NCBI GenBank assembly: GCA_021825785.1
Contig: JAKAGP010000006.1
Location: 1-16,213, forward strand
Origin: Nitrospirota bacterium
GTDB taxonomy: Bacteria; Nitrospirota; Thermodesulfovibrionia; Thermodesulfovibrionales; JdFR-88
Reading direction: 5' to 3'
Length of the DNA stretch: 16,213 nucleotides
A program made the position numbers and the translations under genes. The first letter of the stretch is position 1. Each line of letters starts with the position of its first letter. Positions 1-15,072 of the stretch are shown piece by piece. The notes under the pieces are model-generated. The model was given only the letters and a program-made list of their open reading frames with translations, did not search any database and had not been told where the DNA came from.

Positions 1-618
1 GACTTTCCCGCGCAATCTCTCCACCCAGCCCGTGTCCCGCCTTTCATACTTACGGAAAACACCCCAGGCTACCAGATCCGCCGCCTGAAGCTGCAGAACT
101 TCCTGGGAAGAGCGATGGAAAATTTCCAGCGGGATCCGCGGGTCGAGCCGTGCTTTCAGGTGTGCGATAATATACTCATTGAAGCGGTTGATCCTGGCCG
201 CGGTCTTGCTCTTATCCACGGTCAGGATCACCCTTACTCCGGTAGTATCCAGGTCTACCCTTTCAAGGACTTGCCTAGCGATGTAATTGTATATCCGCTC
301 CTTGTCGGCGGCCAGGAACGGCATGGCTCCTCTTTTGTTTATTGTCACGGCGTACACTTTGAAATCAACGGGCGCGGACAGGCGATAAAATAATTTCTTC
401 GCCCGCAGCTCCGTTGCGCTTCCTTTAAGTTCTTGCTTCCCGGCGTTCTTTGCCTCATTAAATCTGCGCCACAAGGTTACTTTTACGGCGCCGGCAAGCG
501 CCCTGTTCTGTTCATGGCCTTTGACCGCTAATACCGCTATTGTAAAGTGTTCGTTCGGCTTCTTGTTGACGAAGTCGAAGCCAAGGTCGCCGCTTTCGTC
601 CAGGTACAGATAAAGCAT
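1..618 (-). CDS. DUF3800 family protein (N-terminal 206 codons, runs off the left edge)
   Basis: Reading the minus strand from ATG at 618-616 gives an uninterrupted frame to base 1 (206 codons, no stop), so the gene is cut by the window edge. The N-terminus LYLDESGDLGF (residues 4-14) is the hallmark opening of DUF3800 proteins, with acidic residues D7, E8 and D11. TVDKSK (133-138) supplies a central Asp, and LQAADLVAW (177-185) is the conserved C-terminal motif with D181. This acidic arrangement resembles an RNase H-like fold and the family is often suspected of nuclease activity, but no biochemical role is established. DUF3800 genes are frequent in mobile and defence-rich regions. It diverges from the polysaccharide operon and is unlikely to be part of it. 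Only a short C-terminal stretch should be missing, since family members are usually a little over 200 residues. Confidence 0.88.
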   Translation of the reverse strand, partial: MLYLYLDESGDLGFDFVNKKPNEHFTIAVLAVKGHEQNRALAGAVKVTLWRRFNEAKNAGKQELKGSATELRAKKLFYRLSAPVDFKVYAVTINKRGAMPFLAADKERIYNYIARQVLERVDLDTTGVRVILTVDKSKTAARINRFNEYIIAHLKARLDPRIPLEIFHRSSQEVLQLQAADLVAWGVFRKYERRDTGWVERLRGKV

Positions 619-629
619 AGCCCACCCCC

Positions 630-657
630 GCTATAGCATAGCAGGCTACCCCGTCAA
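630..657 (-). promoter_or_regulatory. Candidate promoter for the DUF3800 gene
   Basis: On the minus strand TTGACG (657-652) is followed after 16 bases by TATAGC (635-630). An upstream TGC (638-636) makes it an extended -10. The predicted transcription start near 623 leaves only about five bases before the ATG at 618, so the message would be nearly leaderless. The G-rich stretch just before the ATG could instead act as a weak ribosome binding site if transcription starts further upstream. Called by eye only. Confidence 0.4.
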
Positions 658-694
658 GGGCCTGTCGCCTTTCCCGCGCCGCCGGCTATCCGCC

Positions 695-714
695 ATCCCG
701 GCGAAAGCCGGGAT
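695..714. repeat. Palindromic repeat, copy 1 (perfect 8-bp stem, GAAA loop)
   Basis: ATCCCGGC (695-702), GAAA loop (703-706), GCCGGGAT (707-714) form a perfect 20-base palindrome. The same core recurs at 15024-15043, and a degenerate copy lies at 1102-1121. Small GC-rich dyads of this type are dispersed intergenic repeats (REP-like) in many bacterial genomes. No T-run follows on either strand, so it is not a canonical intrinsic terminator. It sits between two divergent promoters and might separate them. Confidence 0.8.
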
Positions 715-759
715 CCGGCCCATCTGTAACCCAAGTCACTCCCGGACCTGCGCCCAAAT

Positions 760-768
760 TGCTATAAT
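760..768 (+). promoter_or_regulatory. Extended -10 promoter for the polysaccharide operon
   Basis: TGCTATAAT (760-768) is a perfect extended -10 element: TG, one base, then consensus TATAAT. No good -35 is visible about 17 bases upstream, which is usual for extended -10 promoters. Transcription would start near 775, giving a leader of about 50 bases before the ATG at 826. The upstream flank CAAATTG (755-761) is also found at 15089-15095 before the CapD gene. It is the only strong promoter-like sequence I see ahead of the thirteen-gene plus-strand run. Confidence 0.6.
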
Positions 769-778
769 AAAGATATCT

Positions 779-806
779 AGGGGGAGCGGTAGTGGTGTAT
801 CCTCCT
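779..806 (+). promoter_or_regulatory. 5' leader hairpin of the operon
   Basis: AGGGGGA (779-785) can pair with TCCTCCT (800-806): six Watson-Crick pairs and one G-U, around a 14-base loop. The right arm looks like an anti-Shine-Dalgarno sequence and the left arm like a Shine-Dalgarno sequence. The stem falls inside the predicted leader, about 20 bases before the regulator's ATG. It could affect translation or mRNA stability, but no regulatory function is shown. Confidence 0.3.
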
Positions 807-825
807 ACAACGAAAAGTGTAAAGA

Positions 826-1128
826 ATGACACTCCTGACCGCTTTCAAGTCGGCCGTAACCCGCAAACTGCTGGGCCATTTCTTCGCCCACCCGCAGGAC
901 CGCCTCTACGTCAACGAGATAGCCAAGATCCTCTCCCTGGACAAACGCAACCTCGTCAAGAAACTCCGCGAATTCGAGACCGCCGGCCTGCTCAAAAAAG
1001 AAGCCCGCGGCAACATGAGACTGTACTCCATCAACGCCGACTTCCCGCTTTACAACGAATACCGCCGCATAGTGCTGGCCGCCGCCGCGCCAACGACCGT
1101 CATCCCGGCAAAAGCCTGGAACCAGTAA
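826..1128 (+). CDS. Small winged-helix DNA-binding protein, first gene of the operon
   Basis: This 100-residue protein has a winged-helix fold: an N-terminal helix (about 4-20), a helix-turn-helix (about 29-53, YVNEIAKILSLDKRNLVKKL) and a wing (about 56-69, LKKEARGNMRLYSIN). The DFPLYNEYRRIV tail is typical of the ArsR/MarR-like or nucleotidyltransferase-associated winged-helix proteins that sense no obvious metal or ligand. A stop at 820-822 in frame fixes ATG 826 as the first start; the ribosome binding site is poor. Its last eight residues (IPAKAWNQ) and the stop neighbourhood come from a degenerate palindromic repeat (see 1102-1121). As the first gene, 11 bases before the Wzz-kinase, it is a plausible autoregulator of the locus, but the target is not known. 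No ligand or metal site is visible. Confidence 0.75.
   Translation: MTLLTAFKSAVTRKLLGHFFAHPQDRLYVNEIAKILSLDKRNLVKKLREFETAGLLKKEARGNMRLYSINADFPLYNEYRRIVLAAAAPTTVIPAKAWNQ
1102..1121. repeat. Palindromic repeat, degenerate copy 2, inside the regulator's 3' end
   Basis: ATCCCGGC (1102-1109), AAAA loop, GCCTGGAA (1114-1121). It matches copy 1 in the left arm and flank (CGTCATCCCGGC against CGCCATCCCGGC) but carries mismatches in the right arm, leaving six of eight pairs. It is translated as IPAKAWN at the C-terminus of the winged-helix protein. With copy 1 at 695 in the same orientation it brackets the promoter and regulator gene. Confidence 0.65.
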
Positions 1129-1139
1129 AAGGAAAACCT

Positions 1140-2939
1140 ATGAACGAGACTAACAACACTTCCGAAAAAGAGCTCGAATTCGACCTCACCTATTACCTGG
1201 ACCTCGTCCTGCGCCGCAGGTGGATAGTGCTCTCAGTCTGGGCGGCCATGGTGATAGTTACTTCACTCGTCACCTTCAACACGCGCCCAGTCTACCAAGG
1301 CCAGGCCATGCTGGTCATAGAGAAAGAGCGCGGCAACAGCGTGGTCTACCAGGGCGGCCCCGCCGTGGAGCGCAGCAATGAGGACTACTACCAGACGCAG
1401 TACAAGCTGCTCAAGAGCGAAAGCCTCCTCAAGACCGTTTACCAGCGTCTTGACTTGGAGAAATACCCGGAGTTCTCTAACCCCTACGGATATCTTAAGC
1501 TCGATAAACCCGTAACCATAGCCCCGGTGCCGCGCAGCCGCTTGGTATATATAAAAGCCGACTCATACAGCCCTGTGCTTGCAGCGGAGATAGCCAATAC
1601 CGTGGCCAAGGTCTTTATAGAACAGAACCTCTCCAACCAGCTTTTTATCTCCAAAGATGTGTTGGCCGCCCTGCAGGGCGAAAAGGACGGAAAGAAGTCC
1701 GCCCAGGTATACGAGTCCCTGCCTGCCGTGGTTAACAACACCCTTATACAGGACTTGAAGCGCGAGGAGGCCAAGCTCAAGTCGCAACTTGCCGAGGCTA
1801 GCGGACATTACACTCCCAGGCACCCGGAGGTTCTGGCGCTTACTGCGAATCTCAAGGCCGTGCAGGAGCAGATAAAGGCCGAGACCGACCGCGTGATACA
1901 GAGTCTCAAGATAGACCTCTCCGGCCAATTGATGGGTAACAACATCCGCTTGGTGGATGCCGCCATGCCCCCGCTGAAACCAATAAAACCGCGCAAATTG
2001 TTCAATATGGCTCTGTCCATCATCGGCGGATTAGTACTAGGTTTTTTTGTCTCTCTTATAGTGGAATTCATAGACCAGACCATCCGCACTCAGGAGGATG
2101 TGGAGAATAAGCTTAGCCTCCCTTTCCTCGGAGTTGTCCCAATGACGCCATTTGGCAAAAAAGCTACTGCTTATAACCATTTGTTACAGCAGGAGCATTC
2201 GCTCATAGCCGAGTCCATCCGCAACCTGCGCACCATGATAGACTTCGCCATAGTGGGCCAGAAGAGCAAGTCCTTCATGGTCACCAGCACCGTGCAGGGC
2301 GAGGGTAAGAGCTATGTCTGCTCTAATATCGCCGTGGCCATTGCCCAGGCGGGGGAAAAGGTGTTGATAGTGGACGGCGACCTGCGCCGCAGCAACCTGC
2401 ATAAGAACTTCCGCGTCAGCAACTCTAAAGGCTTAAGTGACTTCCTCGCAGGCGGCAAAAACACGGACGATCTCAAGAATCTCATACAAACTACCGACGT
2501 CGAGAACCTCTCAATACTTACCTGTGGTCCCAGACCGCCAAACCCGGCCGAATTACTGAATACCCCACGCCTGAGCGCCTTCCTCGCCTGGGCTGGTGAA
2601 TATTACGACCGCGTCATCATAGACTGCCCGCCGATGTTCCCTATAAGCGACGCGTTGCTGTGGGGAAAATACATCAACAGCGCGGTATATGTGACCTGCT
2701 TCGGTAAGACGCGCGTACCGCTCATAAGGAACGCGACGAAGCGGCTGCTTTCAGCCGGTATCAAGATACTGGGCAGCGTTGTAAACATGAGCAAGTTCGG
2801 TGGGCTCTCATACTCTTATTACGGGTACTACCAGTATAAGTACAACTACCACTACGGCTACGCCCCGGATGATAAGGATAATCAGGAAGCTGGTGTTGAG
2901 CTGACTAAAAAGAGTCACGCAAAGAAAGAATTGGTCTGA
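1140..2939 (+). CDS. Wzz chain-length/co-polymerase protein fused to a BY-type tyrosine autokinase (Wzc-like)
   Basis: The 599-residue inner-membrane protein controls polymer length and export. It has a Wzz domain: a first membrane segment at about 28-46, an extracytoplasmic part with a helical region at about 200-255, and a Pro-rich stretch PPLKPIKPRK (277-286) before the second membrane segment (about 288-308). A cytoplasmic BY-kinase follows: Walker A STVQGEGKS (383-391), Walker A' VLIVDGDLR (408-416), Walker B VIIDCPP (492-498). The C-terminus carries ten tyrosines between 558 and 574, the autophosphorylation cluster. It is shorter than Wzc of E. coli (about 720 residues), mainly in the extracytoplasmic part. 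The start is ATG 1140, preceded by AAAGGA at a good distance. The frame stays open upstream to 792, but that part only overlaps the winged-helix gene and encodes an unlikely Arg/Pro-rich sequence. Phosphorylation would be reversed by a Wzb-type phosphatase, which is not in the window. Confidence 0.95.
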   Translation: MNETNNTSEKELEFDLTYYLDLVLRRRWIVLSVWAAMVIVTSLVTFNTRPVYQGQAMLVIEKERGNSVVYQGGPAVERSNEDYYQTQYKLLKSESLLKTVYQRLDLEKYPEFSNPYGYLKLDKPVTIAPVPRSRLVYIKADSYSPVLAAEIANTVAKVFIEQNLSNQLFISKDVLAALQGEKDGKKSAQVYESLPAVVNNTLIQDLKREEAKLKSQLAEASGHYTPRHPEVLALTANLKAVQEQIKAETDRVIQSLKIDLSGQLMGNNIRLVDAAMPPLKPIKPRKLFNMALSIIGGLVLGFFVSLIVEFIDQTIRTQEDVENKLSLPFLGVVPMTPFGKKATAYNHLLQQEHSLIAESIRNLRTMIDFAIVGQKSKSFMVTSTVQGEGKSYVCSNIAVAIAQAGEKVLIVDGDLRRSNLHKNFRVSNSKGLSDFLAGGKNTDDLKNLIQTTDVENLSILTCGPRPPNPAELLNTPRLSAFLAWAGEYYDRVIIDCPPMFPISDALLWGKYINSAVYVTCFGKTRVPLIRNATKRLLSAGIKILGSVVNMSKFGGLSYSYYGYYQYKYNYHYGYAPDDKDNQEAGVELTKKSHAKKELV

Positions 2940-2988
2940 CTATTCTTCAGAGTAGCGCCGTTATGGTTATGTGTGCTTGGAGTCAATT

Positions 2989-4179
2989 ATGATACCGCTG
3001 ATGAAGAACACTTTCCTCAACGAGTACGAGACAAAGAAGGAGCTCGTGGATTTCATCCTCAAGGCCAAGATCCTCAGCATGGGCGAGAAATGCCTGGAGT
3101 TCGAGAAGGCCTTCGCCAAGGTGCAGGGCCGCCGGCACTGCGTGCTCTTCAACAGCGGCGGCAGCGCGAACCTGGCCCTGCTGCAGGCGCTCAAGAACCT
3201 GGGCCGGCTTAAGGAGGGGGACAAGGTGGGGTTCTCCGCCCTTACCTGGTCTACCAACGTGATGCCGATAATACAGCTGGGGATGAAGGCGGTCCCCGTG
3301 GACTGCGACGCGCAGACGCTCAACTGCATGGCCGCCAACCTCCAGGAGACGCTTAAGACGGCCAAGCTGCGCGCCTTCTTCGTTACCAACGCGCTGGGCT
3401 TCGCGGGGGACCTCGGTGAGATACGCGAGGTTTGCCGGAAGAACGGCGTGCTGCTGATAGAGGACAACTGCGAATCCCTGGGCACGCAGCTGCCGGACGG
3501 CCGCACGGGAAATTTCGGGGAAGCGGCCACGTTCTCCTTCTTCGTGGCGCACCATATGTCCACCGTAGAGGGCGGGTGCTGCTGCACGGACGACGACGAG
3601 CTGGACGAGATGCTGCGCATAGTGCGGGCCAACGGCTGGGACCGCAACCTGAACTTCGCGGCGCAGCGCCGCCTGCGGGAGAAGCACGGGGTGAAGAGCG
3701 AGTTCGACGCCAAGTACACCTTCTACGACCTCGGCTTCAACCTGCGCCCCACCGAGATCACCGGCTTCCTGGGCCTGGAGCAGTTGAAATACCTGCAGGA
3801 GAACTGCGAAGTGCGCCAGAAGAACTTCCTGGCGCTGGAGGAGGAGGTTCTGAACAACCCGGACCTCATGCCCATCAAGCGCGGGCACCTGTCCTTCGTG
3901 TCCAACTTCGCCTTCACCGTGATCTGCAGGACCAAGGAGCTGCGCAGCAAGTACATAGAGCAGTTCTCCGGCGACGGTGTGGAGATAAGGCCGGTGATAG
4001 CCGGCAACATGCAGCGCCAGCCCTTCTACGCCAAGTACGTGGGCGAGACTTACGAGCTCAAGGGCGCGGATTTCCTGCATGAGTGCGGCTTCTATTTCGG
4101 CAATTACCCGGAGCTGACCGAGTCGGACCTGGACATGCTTAGGAGCTGCCTGAGGAAGTATGTGGCCATTAGTTCCTAA
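2989..4179 (+). CDS. DegT/RfbH-family PLP (PMP) enzyme with His in place of the catalytic Lys; probable nucleotide-sugar 3-dehydratase
   Basis: This is a 396-residue member of the DegT/DnrJ/EryC1/StrS fold. NSGGSAN (55-61) binds the cofactor phosphate, LIEDNCESLGT (156-166) contains the pyridine-contacting D159, and FSFFVAHHMSTVEGG (182-196) is the active-site loop. Aminotransferases of this family have Lys six residues before the EGG glutamate; here that position is H188. A His there defines the dehydratases RfbH/E1 (CDP-4-keto-6-deoxyglucose 3-dehydratase) and ColD (colitose pathway), and SALTWSTNVMPIIQLG (83-98) also resembles RfbH. E1 binds a [2Fe-2S] cluster through four Cys. Only the DNC cysteine (C161) is kept; the later Cys group is absent, which favours the Fe-S-independent ColD mechanism. 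CCC at 197-199 is unusual. I chose ATG 2989 because GGAG (2979-2982) precedes it; GTG 2971 would add six residues. The gene is strikingly GC-rich. Confidence 0.85.
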   Translation: MIPLMKNTFLNEYETKKELVDFILKAKILSMGEKCLEFEKAFAKVQGRRHCVLFNSGGSANLALLQALKNLGRLKEGDKVGFSALTWSTNVMPIIQLGMKAVPVDCDAQTLNCMAANLQETLKTAKLRAFFVTNALGFAGDLGEIREVCRKNGVLLIEDNCESLGTQLPDGRTGNFGEAATFSFFVAHHMSTVEGGCCCTDDDELDEMLRIVRANGWDRNLNFAAQRRLREKHGVKSEFDAKYTFYDLGFNLRPTEITGFLGLEQLKYLQENCEVRQKNFLALEEEVLNNPDLMPIKRGHLSFVSNFAFTVICRTKELRSKYIEQFSGDGVEIRPVIAGNMQRQPFYAKYVGETYELKGADFLHECGFYFGNYPELTESDLDMLRSCLRKYVAISS

Positions 4180-4197
4180 GTAGAAGATTATGACCTT

Positions 4198-5691
4198 GTG
4201 CTTTTCGCTTTATCAAGAGATAGTGAACTCGGGCAAAAGAAGCTTGCAATGATTCCTATCTTTATCGCTCGTCTTGTACAGGTCGGTGTGGCGGTCGCTA
4301 TGATGCGAGTTATGACCACGCTGTTGTCCCCTGTAGAGGTCGGGGCTGTCTCTATAGCATTGTCGATTTCAGTAATGCTAAATCTTACGTTGATAAATCC
4401 GATCTGGATGTATATACTTAGAAACCTTCATGAATGGCAGCGCTTAAACTTACTGCCTAAAAAAATTCTTATTGGATTTGCCTGGTATTTACTTTGTGTC
4501 TCGCTCTTGTCACCGTTAATTGTTTCAGGTATTTCGTGGTTAGGGTGGGGGGTGCCAGGCGGCGGGGGCTGGGTGATTATTGCAATAGCCCTGCATTTTG
4601 CGATATTTTCGGCTGTTTCAACTCTGCCGCTGCTGATAAACAATCTCGGTCAAATTACTAAAGCTGCGGCACTTAATGGTGGAATCGCGTTGGCATCATT
4701 GGGCGGATGTGTGCTGACTGTGAAATTTGTCGGTTCAAATGTCACTGGGTGGATGATTGGGCTGTCTGCGGGCTATGCGGTGATGTTCCTTGTGGGTATT
4801 CCTGGTTTTCTTAAGTCGATTCAAGGCCCGAAATCTGTCCAACCCGGATATCGCTCTGATTGGGATCTCGGTAGCGTTGCTCGATTCGCTTTTCCGCTTT
4901 CTATTTCAGTGTTTTTCGCATGGGGGCAATTGTACGGTTACAGGTTTATCTTCGCTAATGAACTAGGCGCGAACCGTTTGGGGTTGTTTTTTAGCGGGTA
5001 CGCTTTAGGGGCAGCGGTTGTGAATACTGTTGAGAATGTATTGATCCAGTATTTCCAGCCAAGTTTCTATAAGCGGGTATCCCAGAACGAGCCAGTTGAA
5101 GCCGCGGCTGCATGGGAAGAGTATTCTTCCCGGGTGATCCCGTCCTTACTATTGTGCATAGGCTTCGTCGCTGGAGCGGCGCCCTTTCTTGCAAAGTTGT
5201 TGCTCGGCAGCGCGTTCCAGTCTGCGGCGCGGTTCGCTGTGTGGGGGGCTGCGGTGGAGTCTCTGCGGGCGTCTCTGGCGGTGTTCTCCCTTTCCGCACA
5301 TGCGCAGACTAAAACGCGGCCTTTAATCTTGGCCAATATAATCGCTGCAGTAGCAGCTTTGGGTCTGGCAACTGTGTTAATCAGGCCTTTTGGTGAAATT
5401 GGTGTCGGTTCCGCGTTGGTCATTTCTTACCTTTTGGGCATAGTGATGGTATACTCCTACCTTGGGCGCGGGGCGCATATGCCTATCAGGTCCAGGGTTC
5501 TCGGGGATATTCTTCTGGGAACCTCTTTTGTCCTCCTTTTCTCAATTATGGTGCGGTTCTTCTTACCGTCCAATTTGTCTATTTATTCTGCGGTTAATGG
5601 CGTCGGTCTACTGTCGGTGGTTTTCCTCTTGGTGTTGATCCGGGTTGTGAGGATACAACCATTTAAGGACTGGAAAATCGCATGGCCTTGA
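4198..5691 (+). CDS. wzx: Wzx-type polysaccharide flippase (MOP superfamily)
   Basis: This 497-residue polytopic membrane protein has about a dozen or more hydrophobic segments along its whole length. The N-terminus (SRDSELGQKKLAMIPIFIARLVQ... followed by LLSPVEVGAVSIA) has the layout of oligosaccharide flippases: a DS-containing lead, a first helix, then L-S-P-x-E-x-G before the second helix. It would move the lipid-linked repeat unit from the cytoplasmic to the outer face of the inner membrane. The start is GTG 4198, since the previous in-frame codons run back to the upstream stop without an ATG and the lead residues fit the family; ATG 4249 is the alternative. AGAAG at 4182-4186 is a weak ribosome binding site. 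It overlaps the next gene by 10 bases. From here GC content drops clearly compared with the preceding gene. The family diverges strongly, so the assignment rests on topology, motif and context. Confidence 0.85.
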   Translation: MLFALSRDSELGQKKLAMIPIFIARLVQVGVAVAMMRVMTTLLSPVEVGAVSIALSISVMLNLTLINPIWMYILRNLHEWQRLNLLPKKILIGFAWYLLCVSLLSPLIVSGISWLGWGVPGGGGWVIIAIALHFAIFSAVSTLPLLINNLGQITKAAALNGGIALASLGGCVLTVKFVGSNVTGWMIGLSAGYAVMFLVGIPGFLKSIQGPKSVQPGYRSDWDLGSVARFAFPLSISVFFAWGQLYGYRFIFANELGANRLGLFFSGYALGAAVVNTVENVLIQYFQPSFYKRVSQNEPVEAAAAWEEYSSRVIPSLLLCIGFVAGAAPFLAKLLLGSAFQSAARFAVWGAAVESLRASLAVFSLSAHAQTKTRPLILANIIAAVAALGLATVLIRPFGEIGVGSALVISYLLGIVMVYSYLGRGAHMPIRSRVLGDILLGTSFVLLFSIMVRFFLPSNLSIYSAVNGVGLLSVVFLLVLIRVVRIQPFKDWKIAWP

Positions 5692-6488
5692 AAATATCGG
5701 TCGTTACGGCTTGTTATAATAGCGCCGCAACAATAAGGAGCGCTCTTCATAGTGTGGCTTCGCAAACCTATCCACATATTGAGCATGTTATAATCGATGG
5801 CGCTTCAAAGGACGATACTCTGGATATTATCGCAAGGCATTCAATTCCAGGGGCTGTCGTTGTCAGCGAACCGGACCGCGGGATCTATGACGCGTGGAAC
5901 AAAGGTATTCGGAAAGCCACAGGTGACTATATTTGGCTTTTAAATTCGGATGACCGTATTTATGACAACGATACGATAGAGAAAGCGGTCGGTTTTTTAG
6001 TCGCTAATTCGTCCCCGGAGTTCATCTATGGAAAAGTTAAGGGGATGGAAAGTGCTTCCGGTTACTCGTATATTTCCGGGAAACCTACAAACTTGCGCGA
6101 TTTCGTGTACGGGATGAGGAATTTCTGTATATTGGCCACTATTATCCGGAGAGATGTTTTCTCTAGAGTGGGCTATTTCAATGAGAACTACCGGATATCA
6201 AGCGATTATGACTGGGCTATTTCTGCGTTCAAGAAATTGCCGCAAAAAGAAACGATCTTTTACGACAGCATTCTGACTAATTTTTCTGTGGGTGGAGTTA
6301 GTAATCTGCGGTATAAAGAAGCATACCGTGAAGTCTCGGAGATAGCTAAGGTGCATTTTTCCCGTAGTGATTATTTCAGGCATAGGGCATATATTGCTTG
6401 GCGCCTATTTTTGATGTCTATCCTGCCATATGCCCGCTCTATGGGGGTATTGCATATCTGGCGGACAGCGAGAGGTTTATTGAATTAA
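5682..6488 (+). CDS. Family 2 glycosyltransferase
   Basis: This 268-residue cytoplasmic GT-A enzyme transfers a sugar from a nucleotide donor to the growing lipid-linked unit. ISVVTACYNSAATI (5-18) is the start of the GT2 nucleotide-binding fold and HVIIDGASKDDT (35-46) carries the donor-binding Asp. EPDRGIYDAWNKGI (63-76) is characteristic of the WcaA/WcaE-like branch that adds the first or second sugar of a repeat unit. NSDD (88-91) is the metal-binding DxD-type motif. The length is usual for the branch and no membrane segment is evident. Its ATG lies inside the last codons of the flippase gene (10-base overlap), so translation is probably coupled. Donor and acceptor sugar cannot be read from the sequence. 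AT-rich codon choice as in its neighbours. Confidence 0.93.
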   Translation: MALKISVVTACYNSAATIRSALHSVASQTYPHIEHVIIDGASKDDTLDIIARHSIPGAVVVSEPDRGIYDAWNKGIRKATGDYIWLLNSDDRIYDNDTIEKAVGFLVANSSPEFIYGKVKGMESASGYSYISGKPTNLRDFVYGMRNFCILATIIRRDVFSRVGYFNENYRISSDYDWAISAFKKLPQKETIFYDSILTNFSVGGVSNLRYKEAYREVSEIAKVHFSRSDYFRHRAYIAWRLFLMSILPYARSMGVLHIWRTARGLLN

Positions 6489-6489
6489 G

Positions 6490-6543
6490 ATGAAAAGCAG
6501 GTCCCGCCAACTAATGCTATTTGTCCGAATTTCTTATGAATAA
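6490..6543 (+). other. Seventeen-codon mini-ORF bridging the GT2 and polymerase genes
   Basis: ATG at 6490 starts one base after the GT2 stop. It reads MKSRSRQLMLFVRISYE and stops at 6541-6543, overlapping the polymerase ATG at 6536 by eight bases. It fills exactly the largest gap between genes inside the 4198-15000 part of the operon. It could be a translational-coupling peptide for a gene whose own start lacks a ribosome binding site, or the remnant N-terminus of the polymerase separated by a frameshift, or chance. The sequence alone cannot decide. Confidence 0.25.
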
Positions 6544-7870
6544 GTCGCGTGTGACCATTGCGTTAGGTGCGATGTATGCTTTTGGTATTTTTGTGACAAG
6601 CGATCAGACATTGCGTATTATGTCAATGACTCTGTGTAATTTTATTTCTATCGCAATGTTGCTTATCCTGATTTTTCAGTACGCTGCCGGTAAACGGGAC
6701 GCGGCAAGAGACCCGCTCGCCGTTCCGTTAATGATCGCCATAGTCTGGGCATGTCTTTCTTTGTTGCTGTCATATTTTAACCCTGATACCGCAGCCTCTT
6801 CAGATGCCAACTTGTACGCCTGGGCAGTAGGCGTTAGCTCCCCAGGTTTAAGGGGGGTGTCATATCTCTTTCGCTTCATTTTATCCGTAAGTGCCTTCCA
6901 TTTCCTTTTCACCGCGCTGAATTCGAGTCAGCGGTACTTCTTTGTCCTTAAGGTGTTTTCCTGGGGCTATTTATTGTTTTGCACGATAACGCTTATTCAG
7001 ATTATAGCGTATCACTATTTTGGATATTCATTCGGAGAGGTTTTTGTCGATTCGATCGGTCGGGTACGTATCGGCAGCTATGTCGGAGAACCGTCCGTAA
7101 TGTCGGCTCTGATGTTAAGCGGATTCTTTTTATTCTCGCCATTCTTAAAATTGCCGACTGGTTGGCGGGTGGTCCATCCTTATTTGAGATGGTACGGGTT
7201 TATTGCTGCAAGTATAAGTTTATTTTATGCAATGTCCGCCGCTATCATTGCGGCTATCGTGCTGGTGTTCGCTTATTCTAGGGTCAAATATGCTCGCGGG
7301 CTCTTTTTGGCTATGGCAATTTCGTCGATCGTTTTGTTTTTGCCTTCGGCAGGGGAGAGATTGTACTCCAACTCCGTTGTCAATAAGATACGAGCCGAAC
7401 TTACTACGATAAATATACGTTCTTTCTCCTGGATTGTCGGTTATCGGATGTTAATGGCGTCTCCGCTCACGGGTGTTGGGATTGGGAGAACACCATTTCT
7501 GGTAGAGAAATATATTCCAACGGATGTGGAAATCCCTTTTGATATTTACAGCGATTTCAACTATGCTGAGATGAGACATACTACAATGAATTCCTATTTG
7601 GAATGGGTGGATGAAACCGGTCTTATCGGCGGGATAATACTCATATGGATAATTCGAATGGTGTATAGATATCAGAAAATATACGCGGATGCCGGGACAG
7701 GCCTTGTGAGGAACGCATTCGGGACCGCGCTGCTTGCGCTGGTTATCGCATCAAATTCTTTTCCGGGCGCCTTTTATTTGCCTCATTTTGGTTTTCTTCT
7801 TGCCTTTTATCTCGCCGGCCTTAGGATATTTTCTGGCCAGAGCGCCTCATGCAATACGCCGCTGGTATGA
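6536..7870 (+). CDS. wzy: Wzy/WaaL-type O-antigen polymerase
   Basis: This 444-residue integral membrane protein has about ten or more hydrophobic helices and one large hydrophilic loop (about 270-360), the topology of Wzy polymerases and O-antigen ligases. GSYVGEPSVMS (180-190) has the family's G-x-x-x-EPS motif. The large loop has R295 and W299 followed by SPLTGVGIG (309-317), and it ends with MNSYLEWVDETGLIGG (351-366), matching the H/N-xx-L/E-xx-x-E-x-G pattern of the family. It would join flipped repeat units on the outer face of the inner membrane. Position between glycosyltransferases and next to Wzx and Wzz favours polymerase over ligase. The start is ambiguous: ATG 6536 or TTG 6521 (five residues longer). 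Neither has a recognisable ribosome binding site, and an in-frame stop at 6512 excludes anything earlier. Confidence 0.85.
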   Translation: MNKSRVTIALGAMYAFGIFVTSDQTLRIMSMTLCNFISIAMLLILIFQYAAGKRDAARDPLAVPLMIAIVWACLSLLLSYFNPDTAASSDANLYAWAVGVSSPGLRGVSYLFRFILSVSAFHFLFTALNSSQRYFFVLKVFSWGYLLFCTITLIQIIAYHYFGYSFGEVFVDSIGRVRIGSYVGEPSVMSALMLSGFFLFSPFLKLPTGWRVVHPYLRWYGFIAASISLFYAMSAAIIAAIVLVFAYSRVKYARGLFLAMAISSIVLFLPSAGERLYSNSVVNKIRAELTTINIRSFSWIVGYRMLMASPLTGVGIGRTPFLVEKYIPTDVEIPFDIYSDFNYAEMRHTTMNSYLEWVDETGLIGGIILIWIIRMVYRYQKIYADAGTGLVRNAFGTALLALVIASNSFPGAFYLPHFGFLLAFYLAGLRIFSGQSASCNTPLV

Positions 7871-7882
7871 TGGGATCGTTTT

Positions 7883-8596
7883 ATGATTAATACAATCCGA
7901 ATGGGCATGCGAAAGGTCTTTACTGCGTGTAGCCTGTCTTCAGCTGCTATATCAAAGGCAATCTACCGAACACCGCAGGAGAAAGAAGTTGAGAGATGGT
8001 TTTTGGATGATGGGGACAACACCATGCGGGTAGATTATGATTTGAAACGTGGATCGCTTGTTTTTGATCTTGGTGGTTATGAGGGGGATTGGGCAGCCGA
8101 AATAACGGCGCGCTATGAGTGTGATGTTTTTGTTTTTGAGCCAGTCCCTGATTATGCCGATAGAATCATGCGCCGATTCCAGCGTAATCCTCGGGTTAAG
8201 ATTTTTCCATTTGGGCTAGGTAAGGAAGACTTTACCCAAAGTATTCATGTCGCGGAGGAGGGGTCATCCTTATTCACTAGCCCACATGTATCGAAGGGAA
8301 ATTCTGATATCCCGGTTCACATTAAATGCGCTTCTGAGTTCCTTAAAATTGAGAAGATCTCATCGATCGATTTGATAAAGATAAATATAGAGGGCGGGGA
8401 ATATGACCTTTTGGACCACTTGATTGAAACAGGTGTTGTAAATCAAATCGGGAATATACAGGTGCAGTTCCATGACTTCGCTCCTAATGCTGAATCGAGA
8501 ATGTCCGACATTCAAAGGAAACTTGCGCTTACCCATAAATTAACCTATCAATATCGTTTCGTCTGGGAGAATTGGGAAAGAAAAGGAGCAATATAA
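7883..8596 (+). CDS. FkbM-family SAM-dependent methyltransferase
   Basis: The 237-residue protein carries the FkbM (Methyltransf_21) pattern. LVFDLGGYEGDW (59-70) is the SAM-binding motif I, VFVFEPVPDY (82-91) has the ribose-binding acidic residue E86, and SIDLIKINIEGGEYDLL (161-177) is the family signature with the conserved KI-x-IEG. FkbM enzymes O-methylate sugars or polyketides, so here it most likely methylates a hydroxyl of the repeat unit or caps a terminal sugar. The N-terminal 40 residues are specific to this protein. It lies 12 bases after the polymerase and 1 base before the SDR, inside the AT-rich block. The target hydroxyl cannot be inferred. Confidence 0.9.
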   Translation: MINTIRMGMRKVFTACSLSSAAISKAIYRTPQEKEVERWFLDDGDNTMRVDYDLKRGSLVFDLGGYEGDWAAEITARYECDVFVFEPVPDYADRIMRRFQRNPRVKIFPFGLGKEDFTQSIHVAEEGSSLFTSPHVSKGNSDIPVHIKCASEFLKIEKISSIDLIKINIEGGEYDLLDHLIETGVVNQIGNIQVQFHDFAPNAESRMSDIQRKLALTHKLTYQYRFVWENWERKGAI

Positions 8597-8597
8597 T

Positions 8598-9494
8598 ATG
8601 CGCATTTATATGGCCGGTTCTGCGGGGATGCTTGGGGATGCTTTTATCCGCCATTTTGGGAGTAAACATGAATTAATGTGCACGGATATAGACACTTCTG
8701 ATGACCGCATGCAGTATTGTGACTTCAGGAATTATGCCGAATATTCCAAACAAGTCGCCAAATGGAAGCCGGATTTCCTGTTCCATCTGGGTGCTCACAC
8801 CGATTTGGAATATTGCGAGAAAAATCCGGACGATACCTACCTGACTAACGCCCTTTCGGTGGAGGGCGCAGTCCAGATCGCGAACAACCTTAATATCCCA
8901 CTGCTGTATATAAGCACCGCCGGAATTTTTGACGGCCAGAAGGAGCTTTATGATGATTGGGATGTTCCTAATCCAATGTGCGCTTATGCCAGGGCGAAAT
9001 ACATGGGCGAACGCTATGTCGTGGAGAACATGCGGCGCTATTTCGTCTGCCGCGCAGGGTGGATGATGGGGGGCGGGCTAAAGAAAGACAAGAAATTTGT
9101 TAAGAAGATAGTGGCGCAACTTCTTGAGGGACGTCGTGAATTGAACATCGTCACAGATAAGCTGGGAACTCCGACTTATACCCATGACTTCGCCGCAAAT
9201 GTAGATGCCTTGATGCAGACGGATTACTATGGTGTTTATAACATGGTGTGCGAGGGGGCAACAAGCCGTTTCGAGGTGGCGAAGGAGCTTGTGCGGTTGC
9301 TTGGCCTTGAGAAGGAGGTCACCCTTAAACCGGTGGATTCTTCTTTCTTCAGAGCGGAATATTTTGCCCCGCGGCCGGATTCAGAGAGGCTGGTCAACCG
9401 CAAGCTGGCGTTGCGCAACCTCAATACAATGCGCGATTGGCGCCTCTGCCTGAAAGAGTATGTGGAGGAACATTATTTGAAATTGTTCCCATAG
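8598..9494 (+). CDS. RmlD-like NAD(P)-dependent sugar reductase (extended SDR)
   Basis: The 298-residue cytoplasmic SDR resembles dTDP-4-dehydrorhamnose reductase. GSAGMLG (7-13) is the dinucleotide-binding glycine motif and HLGAHTDLEYCEKNPD (63-78) matches the RmlD segment after the fourth strand. ISTAGIFDG (105-113) parallels RmlD's STDYVFDG. Y130 and K134 in YARAK form the catalytic YxxxK, and GTPTYTHDFA follows in the substrate domain. It probably reduces a 4-keto nucleotide sugar. RmlA, RmlB and RmlC are absent from the window, so dTDP-rhamnose is not assured. With the His-type dehydratase upstream, a colitose- or abequose-like reduction step is an attractive alternative. AAGGAG (8582-8587) lies about 10 bases before the ATG. 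Codon use returns toward GC-rich through this gene. Confidence 0.88.
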   Translation: MRIYMAGSAGMLGDAFIRHFGSKHELMCTDIDTSDDRMQYCDFRNYAEYSKQVAKWKPDFLFHLGAHTDLEYCEKNPDDTYLTNALSVEGAVQIANNLNIPLLYISTAGIFDGQKELYDDWDVPNPMCAYARAKYMGERYVVENMRRYFVCRAGWMMGGGLKKDKKFVKKIVAQLLEGRRELNIVTDKLGTPTYTHDFAANVDALMQTDYYGVYNMVCEGATSRFEVAKELVRLLGLEKEVTLKPVDSSFFRAEYFAPRPDSERLVNRKLALRNLNTMRDWRLCLKEYVEEHYLKLFP

Positions 9495-9507
9495 CCTTCC
9501 GGGCCAA

Positions 9508-10701
9508 ATGCCAATGAAAAAGATTGCGGTCTGCTCTATCTGTTCCAGGAATTATTATCCGCACGCGCGGGTATTGTTCGACTCCATCCGGCGTTTCCAT
9601 CCGGATTGGAGCTTCCATTTGTTGCTGGCTGACGAGGCCGATGAAAATATCAGGAAGTCGGCTGACTATTTTAGCGTCATGCCAGCGAAGGAGTTGGGGA
9701 TCCAGGGATTCCTCGGGATGGCGTTCCGCTATGATGTTATAGAACTGAACGTGGCTCTCAAGCCTTTCCTGATCCGTTCCCTTTTTGCGAGGGGCTATGA
9801 GCGGGTGATCTATTTCGACGTGGATATCCAGGTATTCTCACCTCTCACCCCGGTCCTTGAGGCGTTGGATACCGCTTCGATAGTGATTACGCCTCATATC
9901 ACTTCACCCCTTACAGCGGATGTCGGGCCTACTATCCGGGAAGACTACTTCCTGAAAAACGGGAGCTATAATCTGGGTTTCATCGCGGTTTCTCAGGGCG
10001 AAGAATCCCGGGCGTTTCTTGACTGGTGGGCGGACCGCTGCCTTACGCAGTGCTATAGGGAGCCTGAGACAGGCTTGTTCGTGGATCAGAAGTGGGTAGA
10101 CCTGGTCCCTTGTTTTTATCCCAATACCAAGATCTTGCGTCATCCCGGCTGTAACATGGCTTATTGGAACCTGCATGAACGACGGCTCTCCGGCTCTGCC
10201 GTAAACGCGGAAGTCCCCCTGGTTTTCTTTCACTTCAGCGGTGTGGACATTTCCGCAATCTCGGATATTTCAAAGTACCAGGCCAGGTACAATCTTCAGA
10301 ACCGTCCGGATCTGGCCGAAATCTTTAAGAATTACGCAGACTCTATAATCGCCGCCGGCCATAAGAACTTCATAAACATACCGTATCATTATGGGAACTT
10401 TGAAAATGGCGCGAGGATAGGGCTTATTGTGCGGCGTTTATATGATCATTTCGCCAATGAATATCCAAATCCTTTTGCAACCGGCCCGGGGACCTTATAC
10501 GAGCGCGTAAAACGCAACGGGCTCCTTTCCGGGAACCCGCCTCCTGCGTATAAACCGGCGGATGCAAAAAAACGCGGCCGGCCGATAAATATGCTGTTAA
10601 AATGGGTTGCCAGGCTGCTCGGGGTCGGTAGATATGAGGCGCTCATGGCATATATGCGCTACATCTCCGTATTACGACGACAGAAATTTTTAATTGAGTA
10701 A
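9508..10701 (+). CDS. GT8-like glycosyltransferase (GT-A fold)
   Basis: The 397-residue protein has a GT-A type N-terminus (KIAVCSICSRNYYPHARVLF, 5-24) and YFDVDIQVF (102-110) with the D-x-D metal site at 104-106. YNLGF (154-158), DQKW (193-196), HPGCNMAYWN (212-221) and HFSG (242-245) follow. This order (DxD, N-x-G-x, D-Q-x, H-x-G) is that of family 8-like retaining transferases, usually annotated simply as glycosyltransferase. The C-terminal third (about 260-397) is a separate, less conserved region that ends in a basic segment and could contact membrane or partner proteins. Starts at ATG 9508 or 9514 (two residues apart), with only GGG as a weak ribosome binding site. It sits 13 bases after the SDR and 12 before the GT4 gene. 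Donor and acceptor are unknown. Confidence 0.82.
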   Translation: MPMKKIAVCSICSRNYYPHARVLFDSIRRFHPDWSFHLLLADEADENIRKSADYFSVMPAKELGIQGFLGMAFRYDVIELNVALKPFLIRSLFARGYERVIYFDVDIQVFSPLTPVLEALDTASIVITPHITSPLTADVGPTIREDYFLKNGSYNLGFIAVSQGEESRAFLDWWADRCLTQCYREPETGLFVDQKWVDLVPCFYPNTKILRHPGCNMAYWNLHERRLSGSAVNAEVPLVFFHFSGVDISAISDISKYQARYNLQNRPDLAEIFKNYADSIIAAGHKNFINIPYHYGNFENGARIGLIVRRLYDHFANEYPNPFATGPGTLYERVKRNGLLSGNPPPAYKPADAKKRGRPINMLLKWVARLLGVGRYEALMAYMRYISVLRRQKFLIE

Positions 10702-10713
10702 AGTTGAAATAAG

Positions 10714-11829
10714 ATGAAAATTGGTCTGGATGCCAGATCCTTCGGCGCGACAGTGTGCGGGGTTGCCCGCGTCACAGCGCGGCTTATCGAGGCCCTGTCC
10801 GTAATAGACAGGGAGAATCAATACTTTGTTTTTACGGACTCTTCTCCATTCCCCGGGTTGTCTAATCAAAATTTTCGCGTGGTCCAAACCAGATGCCCGC
10901 GGATGAATCCTTTTTACGATTTGAAGTTCGCCGGTATAGCGGGCGCTTTTCATCTGGATCTGTTCCATTCGGTCCATTCCTGGCTGCCTTTCGGCGTCGG
11001 CCGCATCGCCCCCAGATCATTGGTAACTATACATGATATGTTCGCCGTGACGGACCCTAGTTTCTTCTCCAAATACGGCGCATTTTCCGGGTTTGCACGC
11101 GCTTACTTCTCATATTTAACCGCCCGCTCGGTTAAGGCTGCGGATATGATACTTACGGTTTCGGAGTACAGTAAGAGGAGGATACAGGAAGTAATGCCCG
11201 CATCTGTCGGCAAGGTGGGGGTAGTATATAACGCATCTGGGATGAATCTTTCCCGGGGACCTGCAGGGGCGGTTTCCGGAGTCCAGGGCAAGTACATACT
11301 ATACGTCGGCAATTGCCGCAGTTATAAAAACGTCCCTACACTTATACAGGCCTTTTCGGCCTATCTCCATGCAAACGCGAATTCGGACATCTCATTGGTA
11401 ATTGCCGGCAATGACGCGGCCAGCGAAATAAAAAAACTGGTCGCGGAATACGGGATCGCGGCTAAAGTAATATTCTATAAAGACCCGAATGATAAAGTGC
11501 TTCATGACCTATATGCGGGCGCCTTGGGGTTTGTAATGCCCTCAAAAGAGGAAGGGTTCGGGATTCCCGTAGTAGAAGCGATGGGAATGGGAGTGCCCGT
11601 GATAATCTCCGACGCGGATGCACTTACGGAAGTAGCCGGCGGCGCCGCATTGATATTCCCGAAGTTTGATCATGAACGCCTTGCCGGGCTGATAGGGCAA
11701 TTGGTGCGGGATGAATCGCTTCGCCTCGGCCTTGCGCGCCGGGGGCTTGAGCGAAGCAAAGTCTTTACCTGGAAGCAAAGCGCGGAAAAATTGCTTTCTT
11801 GTTATGTTGATCTTTACTCTGCGAGGTAA
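10714..11829 (+). CDS. Family 4 glycosyltransferase (GT-B fold)
   Basis: This 371-residue GT-B enzyme has an N-terminal acceptor domain beginning MKIGLDARSFGATVCGVARVT (1-21), including the glycine-containing loop typical of mannosyltransferase-like GT4 proteins. TIHDMFAV (105-112) and LTVSEYSKR (147-155) follow. The donor domain starts at YILYVGNCRSYKN (194-206). SKEEGFGIPVVEAMGMGVPV (277-296) contains the E-x7-E pair (E280 and E288) that binds the nucleotide sugar. Length is normal. Members often transfer mannose or rhamnose, but the sugar cannot be read from the sequence. The radical SAM gene follows after only two bases. Confidence 0.94.
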   Translation: MKIGLDARSFGATVCGVARVTARLIEALSVIDRENQYFVFTDSSPFPGLSNQNFRVVQTRCPRMNPFYDLKFAGIAGAFHLDLFHSVHSWLPFGVGRIAPRSLVTIHDMFAVTDPSFFSKYGAFSGFARAYFSYLTARSVKAADMILTVSEYSKRRIQEVMPASVGKVGVVYNASGMNLSRGPAGAVSGVQGKYILYVGNCRSYKNVPTLIQAFSAYLHANANSDISLVIAGNDAASEIKKLVAEYGIAAKVIFYKDPNDKVLHDLYAGALGFVMPSKEEGFGIPVVEAMGMGVPVIISDADALTEVAGGAALIFPKFDHERLAGLIGQLVRDESLRLGLARRGLERSKVFTWKQSAEKLLSCYVDLYSAR

Positions 11830-11831
11830 CC

Positions 11832-13280
11832 GTGAAAGTCTTATTCTATAATCCACCTTTTCTTCCTAAATTCTCCCGGTTTTCACGCAGCCCTGCTGTT
11901 ACCAAGAGCGGGACAATCTACTACCCGAACTGGCATGCTTATGCGGCCGGCTGGCTGGAGAAGAAGGGGCATGAGGTAATGCTACTGGACGCGCCTGCCC
12001 GCGGGTTGAGCCGTGCGGACTCATCACCTCTCATCGCCGATTTTAAACCGGATATCGCTGTGGTTTACACGTCTACCCCCAGCATTTATAACGATGTCGA
12101 GGTCGCTGGCGGCCTGAAAGAGGCCTTGCCTGGCTGCTTTGTGGTTTTAACCGGCCCCCATGTGTCTGCATTGCCGGAAGAAACCCTTGCGCTGGACCCG
12201 CGTATAGATGCGGTAGCGCGGGGGGAGTATGACGCGACAATAGCCGAGCTCGCGGAAGTTTTGCCGGATACCGCCCGACTTGGGTCTGTCAAAGGGATTT
12301 CCTATCGCAATGGCACCGCGGTAGTCAGTAATCCTGACCGTGAATTCATCGAAGATCTGGACGCATTCCCTTTCGTTTCTGAAGTTTACAGGAAACATCT
12401 TAAGGTGGAAGATTACTTTTATGCTCACTGCCGCTTCCCGGTGGTGTCTATCTTCACCAGCCGCGGCTGCTACGCCAAATGCAACTACTGCGTTTATCCG
12501 AAGAAGATGTTCGGCCGGCGGCAGCGCCAGCGCAGCCCGGATAATATAGTGGCCGAGTTTGAATATATACAGCGCGAGCTCCCAGAGGTTAAAGAGGTCC
12601 TGATAGACGACGACACTTTCTCCTTCCATCAGGAGCATACCAGGAAATTCTGCGAGTTGATGATTGCAAAGGGAATTAAGCTCCCATGGACGGTTGAGTG
12701 CCGCGCAAACCTGGCGTATGAAACCATGATTCTGATGAAAAAAGCTGGGTGCCGACTGATAGTGGTTGGATTTGAGAGCGCTGACGACCAGATTCTCCGG
12801 AATGTATGCAAGGGCATTAATATGGAGCAGATGCGCAAATTTGTGGCCGATGCCAGGAGGGCCGGCATAATGCTGCATTCGTGCTTTATGGCCGGGAACC
12901 AGGGTGAGACACAAGAGACTCTTAAAAAATCTCTCGATTTCGCCAAAGAGATCAACGCCGATACCTGTCAGTTCTTCCCTCTTATGGTTTACCCTGGTAC
13001 CGCTGCGTATGCGTGGGCTAAAACAAATAAATACCTCGAAACAGAGGACTTCGCCAGATGGCTTACCCCGGAAGGGCTTCATAACACCATAATAAGTACG
13101 CCTGACCTGAGCGCGCGCGATCTTGTCTCTTTTTGCGACCGGGCGAGGAAAGAGTATTATCTCAGACCTTCGTATATCGCCCGGAAAGCGCTGCAGGCGA
13201 TAACCGATCCATACGAGTTCGTAAAGACGGTTAAGGCCGCGAAGACCTTCTTCAAGTACCTATTCAGAACGGCCGCATGA
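11832..13280 (+). CDS. B12-binding-domain-type radical SAM enzyme
   Basis: The 482-residue protein combines an N-terminal Rossmann-type B12-binding-like domain (about 1-145, with VVLTGPHVSALPEE at 104-117) and a radical SAM barrel. The barrel has the [4Fe-4S] motif C213-x3-C217-x2-C220 (SRGCYAKCNYC). VLIDDDTF, the GFES stretch and a C-terminal cap follow. No canonical cobalamin-ligating DxHxxG is visible in the first domain, as in many relatives, so cobalamin may bind base-off without that His or be absent. Relatives methylate unactivated carbons or rearrange small molecules and lipids. In this operon the substrate is probably a sugar or the lipid carrier glycan. The start is GTG 11832, with GAGG just upstream, two bases after the GT4 stop. 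It overlaps the next gene as ATGA, so both are translationally coupled. Confidence 0.92.
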   Translation: MKVLFYNPPFLPKFSRFSRSPAVTKSGTIYYPNWHAYAAGWLEKKGHEVMLLDAPARGLSRADSSPLIADFKPDIAVVYTSTPSIYNDVEVAGGLKEALPGCFVVLTGPHVSALPEETLALDPRIDAVARGEYDATIAELAEVLPDTARLGSVKGISYRNGTAVVSNPDREFIEDLDAFPFVSEVYRKHLKVEDYFYAHCRFPVVSIFTSRGCYAKCNYCVYPKKMFGRRQRQRSPDNIVAEFEYIQRELPEVKEVLIDDDTFSFHQEHTRKFCELMIAKGIKLPWTVECRANLAYETMILMKKAGCRLIVVGFESADDQILRNVCKGINMEQMRKFVADARRAGIMLHSCFMAGNQGETQETLKKSLDFAKEINADTCQFFPLMVYPGTAAYAWAKTNKYLETEDFARWLTPEGLHNTIISTPDLSARDLVSFCDRARKEYYLRPSYIARKALQAITDPYEFVKTVKAAKTFFKYLFRTAA

Positions 13281-14437
13281 CAACCCTGGAATTCTTTTTC
13301 TGGGGCGGCCTGGGCCTTCTCTCCTACACCTACATCGGGTATCCTGTCCTTTTGTATCTGGCTTACAGGCTGAAGCACGGGAATAATGCCGGCGAAGGAA
13401 CCGGGACAGAATATCCCAGGGTCACAATGATCATCGCAGCCTATAACGAGGCGCGGGTTATTGGCCGCAAGTTGGATAATTGTCTGGAATTGAATTATCC
13501 TGCTGAGAAGGTGGACTTCATTGTGGCATCCGACGGTTCAGGGGATGGGACAAACGATATCGTCTCGCAGAAAGCGGCCCGGTTTCCACGCATAAAGCTG
13601 CTCGCATTGCCCCGCGGTGGTAAAGCTGCCGCTCTCAACGCCGCAATGAAAGTTGTCACGGGGGATATTGTGGTGTTTTCAGATGCCAATACCATGTACG
13701 AGCCAGATGCAGTGACGCGGCTCGCGAAGCATTTCCGTGGTGATGAGATCGGTTGCGTATGCGGCCGTCTTAAATACGTGAATCCGGGCCAGGTGGTAAG
13801 CGGCAAAGGCGAAAGCGCGTATTGGCGTTACGAGACGGCATTGAAGAGAATGGAGAGCAGCCTGGGATATATTGCCGGGGCCAATGGCGCTATATACGCT
13901 ATGCGCAGAGAATTGTTTGAGCCGCTCCCAAGCGGTACCATTAATGACGATTTTATGCTCTCTATGCGTGTGGTATTAAAGGGGTTCAAGAGCCTTTATG
14001 AGGAATCCGCCGTTGCTGTGGAGGAAGTCGCTCCAGATGTGAAAAGTGAGTTCCGCCGGCATGTGAGAGATGGCGCTGGCCACTATATCGCAGTCTGGCG
14101 ACTGGCGCCCTTGTTAAATCCTCTATTGGGACTGCGTGCTTTCATCTATTGGTCTCACCGGATATTCCGGTGGGCAGCCCCATTTCTGCTTATCACGGTG
14201 TTGTCTCTTAATGCAGCTCTTTTTGCGGCAGAGCCATACCGCACCTTATTCATCTTGCAGGTCATATTTTACCTGCTGGCATTGGCCGGTTATGCTGCGT
14301 CAGGTTTTGGCCGTATTCCGTTCTTTATGTATGTTCCCTTCTATTTCTCCAATCTGAATCTGGCTTTGCTGCTTGGTTTCCTCAGAGTGGTATCCGGCAA
14401 AGCCAGGCCGGCCTGGCAGAGTACCCAACGAGCGTAA
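13277..14437 (+). CDS. Membrane-anchored family 2 glycosyltransferase
   Basis: The 386-residue protein has an N-terminal membrane helix (about 6-30), a cytoplasmic GT2 domain and about three C-terminal membrane helices (about 285-375). VTMIIAAYNEARVI (49-62) starts the catalytic domain. D86 in ASDGSGDGT, DAN (136-138) and NDDF (223-226) are the donor, metal and base motifs. The RRHVRDGAGHY segment (260-270) stands where processive enzymes such as cellulose or hyaluronan synthases have QxxRW. It lacks that motif, so single-sugar transfer is more likely than polymerisation. Its ATG overlaps the stop of the radical SAM gene (ATGA), and the next gene follows after two bases. It resembles the icaA/WcaA-like membrane transferases in exopolysaccharide operons. 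Confidence 0.92.
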   Translation: MTTLEFFFWGGLGLLSYTYIGYPVLLYLAYRLKHGNNAGEGTGTEYPRVTMIIAAYNEARVIGRKLDNCLELNYPAEKVDFIVASDGSGDGTNDIVSQKAARFPRIKLLALPRGGKAAALNAAMKVVTGDIVVFSDANTMYEPDAVTRLAKHFRGDEIGCVCGRLKYVNPGQVVSGKGESAYWRYETALKRMESSLGYIAGANGAIYAMRRELFEPLPSGTINDDFMLSMRVVLKGFKSLYEESAVAVEEVAPDVKSEFRRHVRDGAGHYIAVWRLAPLLNPLLGLRAFIYWSHRIFRWAAPFLLITVLSLNAALFAAEPYRTLFILQVIFYLLALAGYAASGFGRIPFFMYVPFYFSNLNLALLLGFLRVVSGKARPAWQSTQRA

Positions 14438-14439
14438 TC

Positions 14440-15000
14440 ATGAAGCGGACATTCGACATACTGCTTTCTCTCCTTATGCTGGCTATATTCGGCTTGCCGA
14501 TGCTTGTTCTGGCTTTATTGGTGCGTAGCACATCCACAGGCCCGGCATTCTATTTGTCCGACAGGGTGGGCAGGGAAAATAAGATATTCAAAATGCCCAA
14601 GTTCCGCACGATGCGGACAGATACTCCGCCCATGGCCACACACCTGATGACCGAGCCTGAAAAATATCTTACCCCTATAGGCGGTTTCCTGCGAAAGACC
14701 AGCCTGGACGAACTGCCGCAGCTTATCAGCATACTTAAAGGTGATATGAGCTTTGTGGGTCCCCGACCGGCGCTTTTTAACCAGGAGGACCTGATCGCCC
14801 TGCGCACTTCTAAGGGAGTGCATAAGATAGTTCCCGGCCTTACCGGCTGGGCACAGGTGAACGGCCGGGACGAACTTGCCATTCCGATAAAAGTTGAATA
14901 TGATGAATTCTATCTGCGGCATAGGTCCTTGGCCCTGGACCTTAAGATCATGGCCATGACCGCGCTGCAGGCGCTTACCGGGAAAGGGGTTTCCCATTAA
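14440..15000 (+). CDS. Small (PglC/WcaJ-like) initiating phosphoglycosyltransferase
   Basis: The 186-residue monotopic enzyme moves a sugar-1-phosphate from a nucleotide sugar to undecaprenyl phosphate, the first step of repeat-unit assembly. The N-terminal membrane segment (about 5-28) contains P20, the break that makes a re-entrant helix in this superfamily. KMPKFRTM (51-58) is conserved, [11 protein letters not shown] (85-95) has the catalytic D90-E91 pair, and FVGPRPAL (105-112) and [16 protein letters not shown] (131-146) are further family motifs. It corresponds to the catalytic core only, like PglC or WsaP-type proteins, without the multi-pass N-terminal part of WbaP or WcaJ. It is the last gene of the compact run and sits next to the CapD-type dehydratase, whose product would be a natural donor (UDP-4-keto-6-deoxy-HexNAc or a derivative). 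Confidence 0.96.
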
Positions 15001-15043: not shown

Positions 15044-15072
15044 GGATAAAGGGGGGTGTATCCTGATATACA

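Follow-up and report, generated by a model that had tools for sequence, protein, structure and literature searches.

Does a DegT-family protein with a histidine in place of the lysine that binds pyridoxal 5'-phosphate (PLP) point to a new activity in sugar metabolism? The question arises from an open reading frame (ORF) in a stretch of 16,213 nucleotides from a Nitrospirota bacterium (contig JAKAGP010000006.1, assembly GCA_021825785.1), referred to here, at its full length, as the window. The initial annotation saw in this ORF a candidate iron-sulfur (Fe-S)-independent sugar 3-dehydratase and suggested that, acting on a UDP-4-keto-6-deoxy-N-acetylhexosamine (HexNAc), it would represent a new activity. 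Most likely, the gene specifies an already known kind of enzyme rather than a new chemistry: very probably, the ORF encodes a ColD-type 3-dehydratase dependent on pyridoxamine 5'-phosphate (PMP), with its partner genes located outside the window. As a reading of the sequence, the Fe-S-independent, His-type 3-dehydratase stands, and its chemistry was right in outline; its novelty does not stand, since ColD already works in this way, which brings the proposed activity back to a known one. The features on which this reading turns are the following.

2989-4179, plus strand: predicted ColD-type GDP-4-keto-6-deoxy-sugar 3-dehydratase (DegT family), 396 amino acids from ATG 2989, alternative start GTG 2971
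3550-3555, plus strand: H188-H189, with H188 at the PLP-lysine column
3577-3585, plus strand: C197-C198-C199, by comparison no Fe-S site, Cys199 being the norm of its clade
3643-3645, plus strand: R219, an arginine shared with ColD, where RfbH has one of its Fe-S cysteines

The His-His site and its place in the DegT family

The protein matches PF01041 (DegT family) at 204 bits. Numbered from ATG 2989, its loop from S183 reads S183-F-F-V-A-H188-H189-M-S-T-V-E-G-G, with codons at 3550-3552 for H188 and 3553-3555 for H189. H188 aligns to H188 of Escherichia coli O55 ColD and to the K of ArnB, which confirms a histidine at the PLP-lysine position; the Schiff-base lysine of the DegT aminotransferases (ArnB, PseC, PglE) was not found in the window protein, which has the DegT/aminotransferase fold with the histidine replacement characteristic of ColD. 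The best sequence matches in the PDB are to ColD (2gms, 3.9e-64, versus 2.4e-42 for E1), and in a Foldseek search against solved structures the first 12 rows are all ColD chains. In the tree, whose eight reference rows partly repeat other leaves, the 170 H-type leaves form one group (support 0.985), within which the window protein belongs to a ColD clade of 153 leaves (support 1.0), with 17 RfbH-side leaves outside it. The placement called for by the initial annotation therefore falls in the ColD clade, apart from both RfbH/E1 and the lysine-type aminotransferases. The window protein is 33% identical to E. coli ColD and lies in a sister subclade within the ColD clade.

The residues were compared over 98 rows of the window clade (window protein included), 55 of the ColD sister clade, and 17 of the RfbH side. 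H188 is invariant in all three groups and H189 is present in 96 of the 98 leaves of the window clade; hence, H188 is not a chance substitution. The aligned four-cysteine Fe-S pattern, found in 16/17 RfbH-side sequences, appears in 0/55 of the sister clade and 0/98 of the window clade, both of which (153 leaves) retain only the first of the four cysteines, so that the reported absence of the later three is borne out. Both ColD clades have W87, W217, R219, and E162 without exception, where RfbH has F, R, C or S, and D, and the window protein keeps all of the invariant columns W87, E162, H188, W217, R219, and R334. We take W87, R219, E332, and R334 to be active-site residues in ColD; what was measured here is their conservation. 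The CCC triplet at 197 to 199 is indeed there but is not odd as first described: Cys199 occurs in 87/98 sequences of the window clade, Cys197 in 12/98, and the full triplet in 4/98. Since Cys199 is the clade norm and E. coli ColD likewise has C197, the triplet does not look, from these alignments, like a cofactor site.

Partner genes of the related ColD genes

A scan of genome contigs provided 151 related loci, the best 80 of which (59 to 91% identity) were examined with bit limits of >130 for the ColC/GDP-fucose-synthase (Fcl) family, >250 for Gmd, and >70 for CapD-like genes. A ColC/Fcl-family gene lies within 150 bp in 66 of the 80 loci and anywhere in the locus stretch in 74; Gmd was found in 25, RfbF in 9, RfbG in 7, and RfbH in 8. 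The ColC of L005, the nearest relative, shares 54% identity with its E. coli O55 counterpart and 39% with E. coli Fcl, and its gene overlaps that of ColD by 4 bases, likewise in E. coli O55; against the GDP-fucose-synthase model (cut-off, 500), each of the two ColC proteins reaches about 305 bits. A Streptomyces relative (49.6%) is located between gmd and a GDP-fucose-synthase gene. Copies 77 to 91% identical to the window protein are encoded at 12 loci.

Six loci have no ColC-family gene in their stretch (L020, L021, L034, L048, L052, and L067), and in all but the last two of these ColD is <3 kb from a contig end. All six genomes have a ColC/Fcl-family gene outside the locus stretch, 32 to 41% identical to L005 ColC (in the L067 genome, the match covers only part of the gene's length), and also a Gmd over the cut-off, adjoining the best ColC/Fcl match in five and the second-best in G164. 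These distant pairs could be GDP-fucose genes; they allow for an unlinked ColC without proving one.

We also searched 14 ColD-bearing genomes, 11 with copies at 77 to 91% (10 of them Elusimicrobia or Elusimicrobiota), a bin labelled Verrucomicrobia with a copy at 88%, and two further Elusimicrobia (64% and 60%). Matches over the cut-off were found for Gmd in 12/14, ManC in 9/14, RfbG in 12/14, and RfbF in 11/13, and in several of the Elusimicrobia relatives Gmd and ManC share the contig of ColD. The partners expected of a ColD are thus found in relatives of the window gene, ColC-family genes at 74 of 80 loci and Gmd and ManC in these genomes; Gmd and ManC, which the initial annotation had named as partners that would define a known pathway, are present in relatives and were not found inside the window. 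In an even phylum sample, Gmd exceeded the cut-off in 35/149 genomes, including all four that carry a close ColD. Taking both phylum-sample searches as the same 149 genomes, and ignoring kinship, 12/14 ColD-bearing genomes versus 31/145 sample genomes without a close ColD gives a Fisher p of 2.5e-6. As a control, 6/14 well-known genomes had Gmd over the cut-off. The two of these 14 genomes without Gmd over the cut-off, G001 and G006, are metagenome-assembled; G001 is the one with the nearest relative, which weighs against the ColD reading, although incompleteness may explain the gap.

Some of the related loci deserve mention in their own right. The Verrucomicrobia-labelled bin carries a ColC-ColD pair (L025, 9075-11176) with a ColD 88% identical to that of the window and a GC content at third codon positions (GC3) of 0.73 among genes of 0.40 to 0.63; this is either a phylum-crossing transfer or a mis-binned contig. 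Among 13 viral records (12 of 80 viral loci, plus L002, a 642-kb phage record), ten have both ColD and a ColC/Fcl-family gene in the stretch, and four of those contigs (L092 to L095) have Gmd too; these viral contigs appear to carry cassettes of GDP-dideoxysugar type. RfbF-RfbG-RfbH are found together with Gmd, ManC, ColC, and ColD in one contig region of L180 (G004:C8), L181 (G003:C44), and L184 (G005:C11), that is, these regions hold genes for two separate 3,6-dideoxysugar routes.

Of 120 listed homologues, 16 are named in their source as a CDP-hexulose dehydrase or as E1, a label that the neighbourhoods of the related loci put in doubt. We suggest as an annotation rule that DegT proteins of the His type that lack the CxCx7C cysteines and carry Arg219 be considered ColD-like.

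The gene in its window and the competing explanations

At the limits used, RfbF, RfbG, Gmd, and ColC were not found in the 16.2-kb window; the early observation that neither a CDP-glucose nor a GDP-mannose pathway is visible there is upheld, and the ColC beside ColD that marks a GDP-L-colitose cassette is likewise missing from the window. The other genes are as follows.

1-618, minus strand: DUF3800 ORF, cut by the window start
792-2939, plus strand: Wzz chain-length/tyrosine-kinase-like ORF, next upstream (PF02706, PF13807, PF13614), where most relatives have the ColC-family gene
4198-5691, plus strand: 497-amino-acid ORF, immediately downstream, without a Pfam or NCBIfam match but flippase-like on inspection
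6521-7870, plus strand: O-antigen ligase/polymerase-family membrane protein (PF04932)
7883-8596, plus strand: FkbM-family methyltransferase, relatives of which directly precede a ColC-family gene and ColD at four other loci
8598-9494, plus strand: RmlD-like short-chain dehydrogenase/reductase (SDR), not ColC (RmlD model 179.5 bits, below the cut-off of 224.05)
11832-13280: HpnJ-like B12-binding radical SAM protein (410.2 bits; cut-off, 577.6), within the polysaccharide cluster
14440-15000, plus strand: bacterial sugar transferase, probably of the initiating type (PF02397, 194.7 bits)
15056-16213, plus strand: CapD/PglF-like dehydratase, cut by the window end, probably specific for UDP-HexNAc (PF02719, PF13727)

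The first ~120 residues of the Wzz/tyrosine-kinase ORF have no match and are possibly out of frame; a 100-amino-acid ORF (826-1128) with a sub-threshold helix-turn-helix match overlaps it.

DNA similarity between the window and the ColD loci of 14 relatives is confined to 2979-4161, the ColD gene only, which is 72 to 84% similar to L005-L015. Beyond this gene, DNA similarity was seen only between a segment of the CapD-like ORF (15409-16123) and a different contig of G002, at 63%. GC3 is 0.90 in the window ColD, 0.42 to 0.65 in the other genes of positions 1-15000, and 0.77 in the cut CapD-like ORF; in L005 and L006, ColD has 0.77 and 0.82. From its lone similarity and high GC3, the ColD gene seems to have joined this cluster singly, or to have had its surroundings replaced, in which case the missing ColC would be elsewhere or replaced. 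The one candidate replacement is the RmlD-like SDR (24% over 63 to 67 residues to a relative's ColC). This SDR protein is also on record from contigs as long as 18,089 bases.

It is conceivable, if unlikely, that ColD entered another polysaccharide cluster on its own, leaving ColC behind, and that there its product would be reduced at C4 by the RmlD-like SDR with no C5 epimerisation, yielding a GDP-linked D-series 3,6-dideoxyhexose. If true, this would be a GDP route to a tyvelose-like sugar, which to our knowledge is only CDP-linked. The SDR is the only complete sugar-nucleotide reductase gene found among the window ORFs, and it comes at once after the FkbM methyltransferase, relatives of which directly precede a ColC-family gene and ColD in L041, L054, L059, and L077 (in L066 with one gene between; in L025 the relative follows ColD). 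Two homologues, P0013 of ColD (87%) and P0128 of the SDR (79%), may be linked, the longest contig being exactly 69,037 bases for each, and the L027 genome has a 62% SDR relative ~16 kb from ColD, the contigs of both having the same length of 1,029,596 bases. Pathways in which a C3-dehydratase works with a separate epimerase and reductase are described in PMC10440746. However, the L027 locus has its own ColC-family gene, a close SDR relative occurs in only 2 of the 50 ColD-bearing genomes searched (50 of 66), that of L027 being one of them, and a distant one (30 to 31%) in 2 of 14 others; rhamnosyltransferase-like genes, below the cut-off, adjoin the SDR relatives in L210 and L212, and the six sampled loci without a partner have a ColC/Fcl-family gene elsewhere in the genome.

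The remaining explanations are weaker still. An RfbH/E1- or SpnQ-type 3-dehydratase of CDP- or TDP-sugars would share the catalytic histidine, and RfbH is the best NCBIfam match, although no model reaches its cut-off (230.4 of 423 bits for RfbH); the window protein is as similar in identity to a Streptomyces RfbH as to E. coli ColD, and in several relatives RfbF and RfbG share the contig of ColD. This assignment is nevertheless very improbable given the missing Fe-S cysteines, the position in the tree, and the separate RfbH-like gene that follows RfbF-RfbG in several of those relatives. Equally doubtful is the proposed 3-dehydration of UDP-4-keto-6-deoxy-HexNAc, suggested by the CapD-type dehydratase 11 kb downstream: with the window's cut ORF as query, CapD-like genes were found in just 3 of the 80 loci, against 74 with the ColC family (66 of them within 150 bp) and 25 with Gmd, the window CapD adjoins a sugar transferase and could serve the first sugar, and the branch and residues are those of ColD, leaving the new activity unsupported. 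DegT membership would also suit an aminotransferase relative that lost its lysine together with its function, but this is hardly credible for a protein whose H-type kin form one supported group, with 12 loci encoding copies 77 to 91% identical and H188 and its neighbouring residues invariant across 25 aligned proteins.

Proposed reaction and comparison with known systems

According to PMC8987622, ColD, E1, and SpnQ have in common a PMP Schiff base and a histidine that drives off the C3 hydroxyl. In ColD, hydrolysis of the intermediate follows and glutamate regenerates PMP, whereas E1 and SpnQ depend on reductases and an Fe-S cluster. The window protein has no Fe-S cysteines and should therefore follow the ColD course. 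By analogy with ColD, it would bind PMP and form a Schiff base with GDP-4-keto-6-deoxy-D-mannose; His188 would take a proton from the cofactor, upon which the C3 hydroxyl would leave, and hydrolysis of the intermediate would give GDP-4-keto-3,6-dideoxymannose, PLP, and ammonia, with glutamate restoring PMP. In the close relatives, GDP-L-colitose would be completed by the ColC next to it (5-epimerase/4-reductase); in the window's genome, Gmd and ColC are most likely encoded elsewhere or just beyond the window. The same reaction type is described for GDP-heptoses, with separate epimerase and reductase, in PMC10440746, so that the substrate here may be a hexose or a heptose and the last steps of the pathway may differ. 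The 3,6-dideoxy sugar expected by analogy would probably go into a surface polysaccharide.

Among known systems, GDP-perosamine synthase (PDB 3bn1, 3dr4) is alike in fold but is a lysine aminotransferase (K186 in the entry title). It too acts on GDP-4-keto-6-deoxymannose. RfbH/E1, the CDP-4-keto-6-deoxyglucose 3-dehydratase (PDB 3bcx, 3bb8), shares the DegT fold and the catalytic histidine; however, E1 carries the cysteines of a [2Fe-2S] cluster and works with an E3 reductase (PMC8987622), and in the window protein R219 stands in place of one of these cysteines. The Campylobacter GDP-heptose C3-dehydratases, compared here by description rather than sequence, resemble it in the proposed reaction type, a GDP-4-keto-6-deoxy sugar, and the use of PLP and glutamate, but their substrate is a heptose (PMC10440746). 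The closest counterpart is ColD/WbdK of E. coli (PDB 2gms, 3b8x, 2r0t, 3gr9). The window protein differs from it in having SFFVAHHMST for SSFYSHHIAT and N215 for H215, and the window is without ColC; it resembles ColD in its fold, H188, the absence of Fe-S cysteines, and the W, E, and R columns and, through its relatives, in the ColC-family and Gmd partners.
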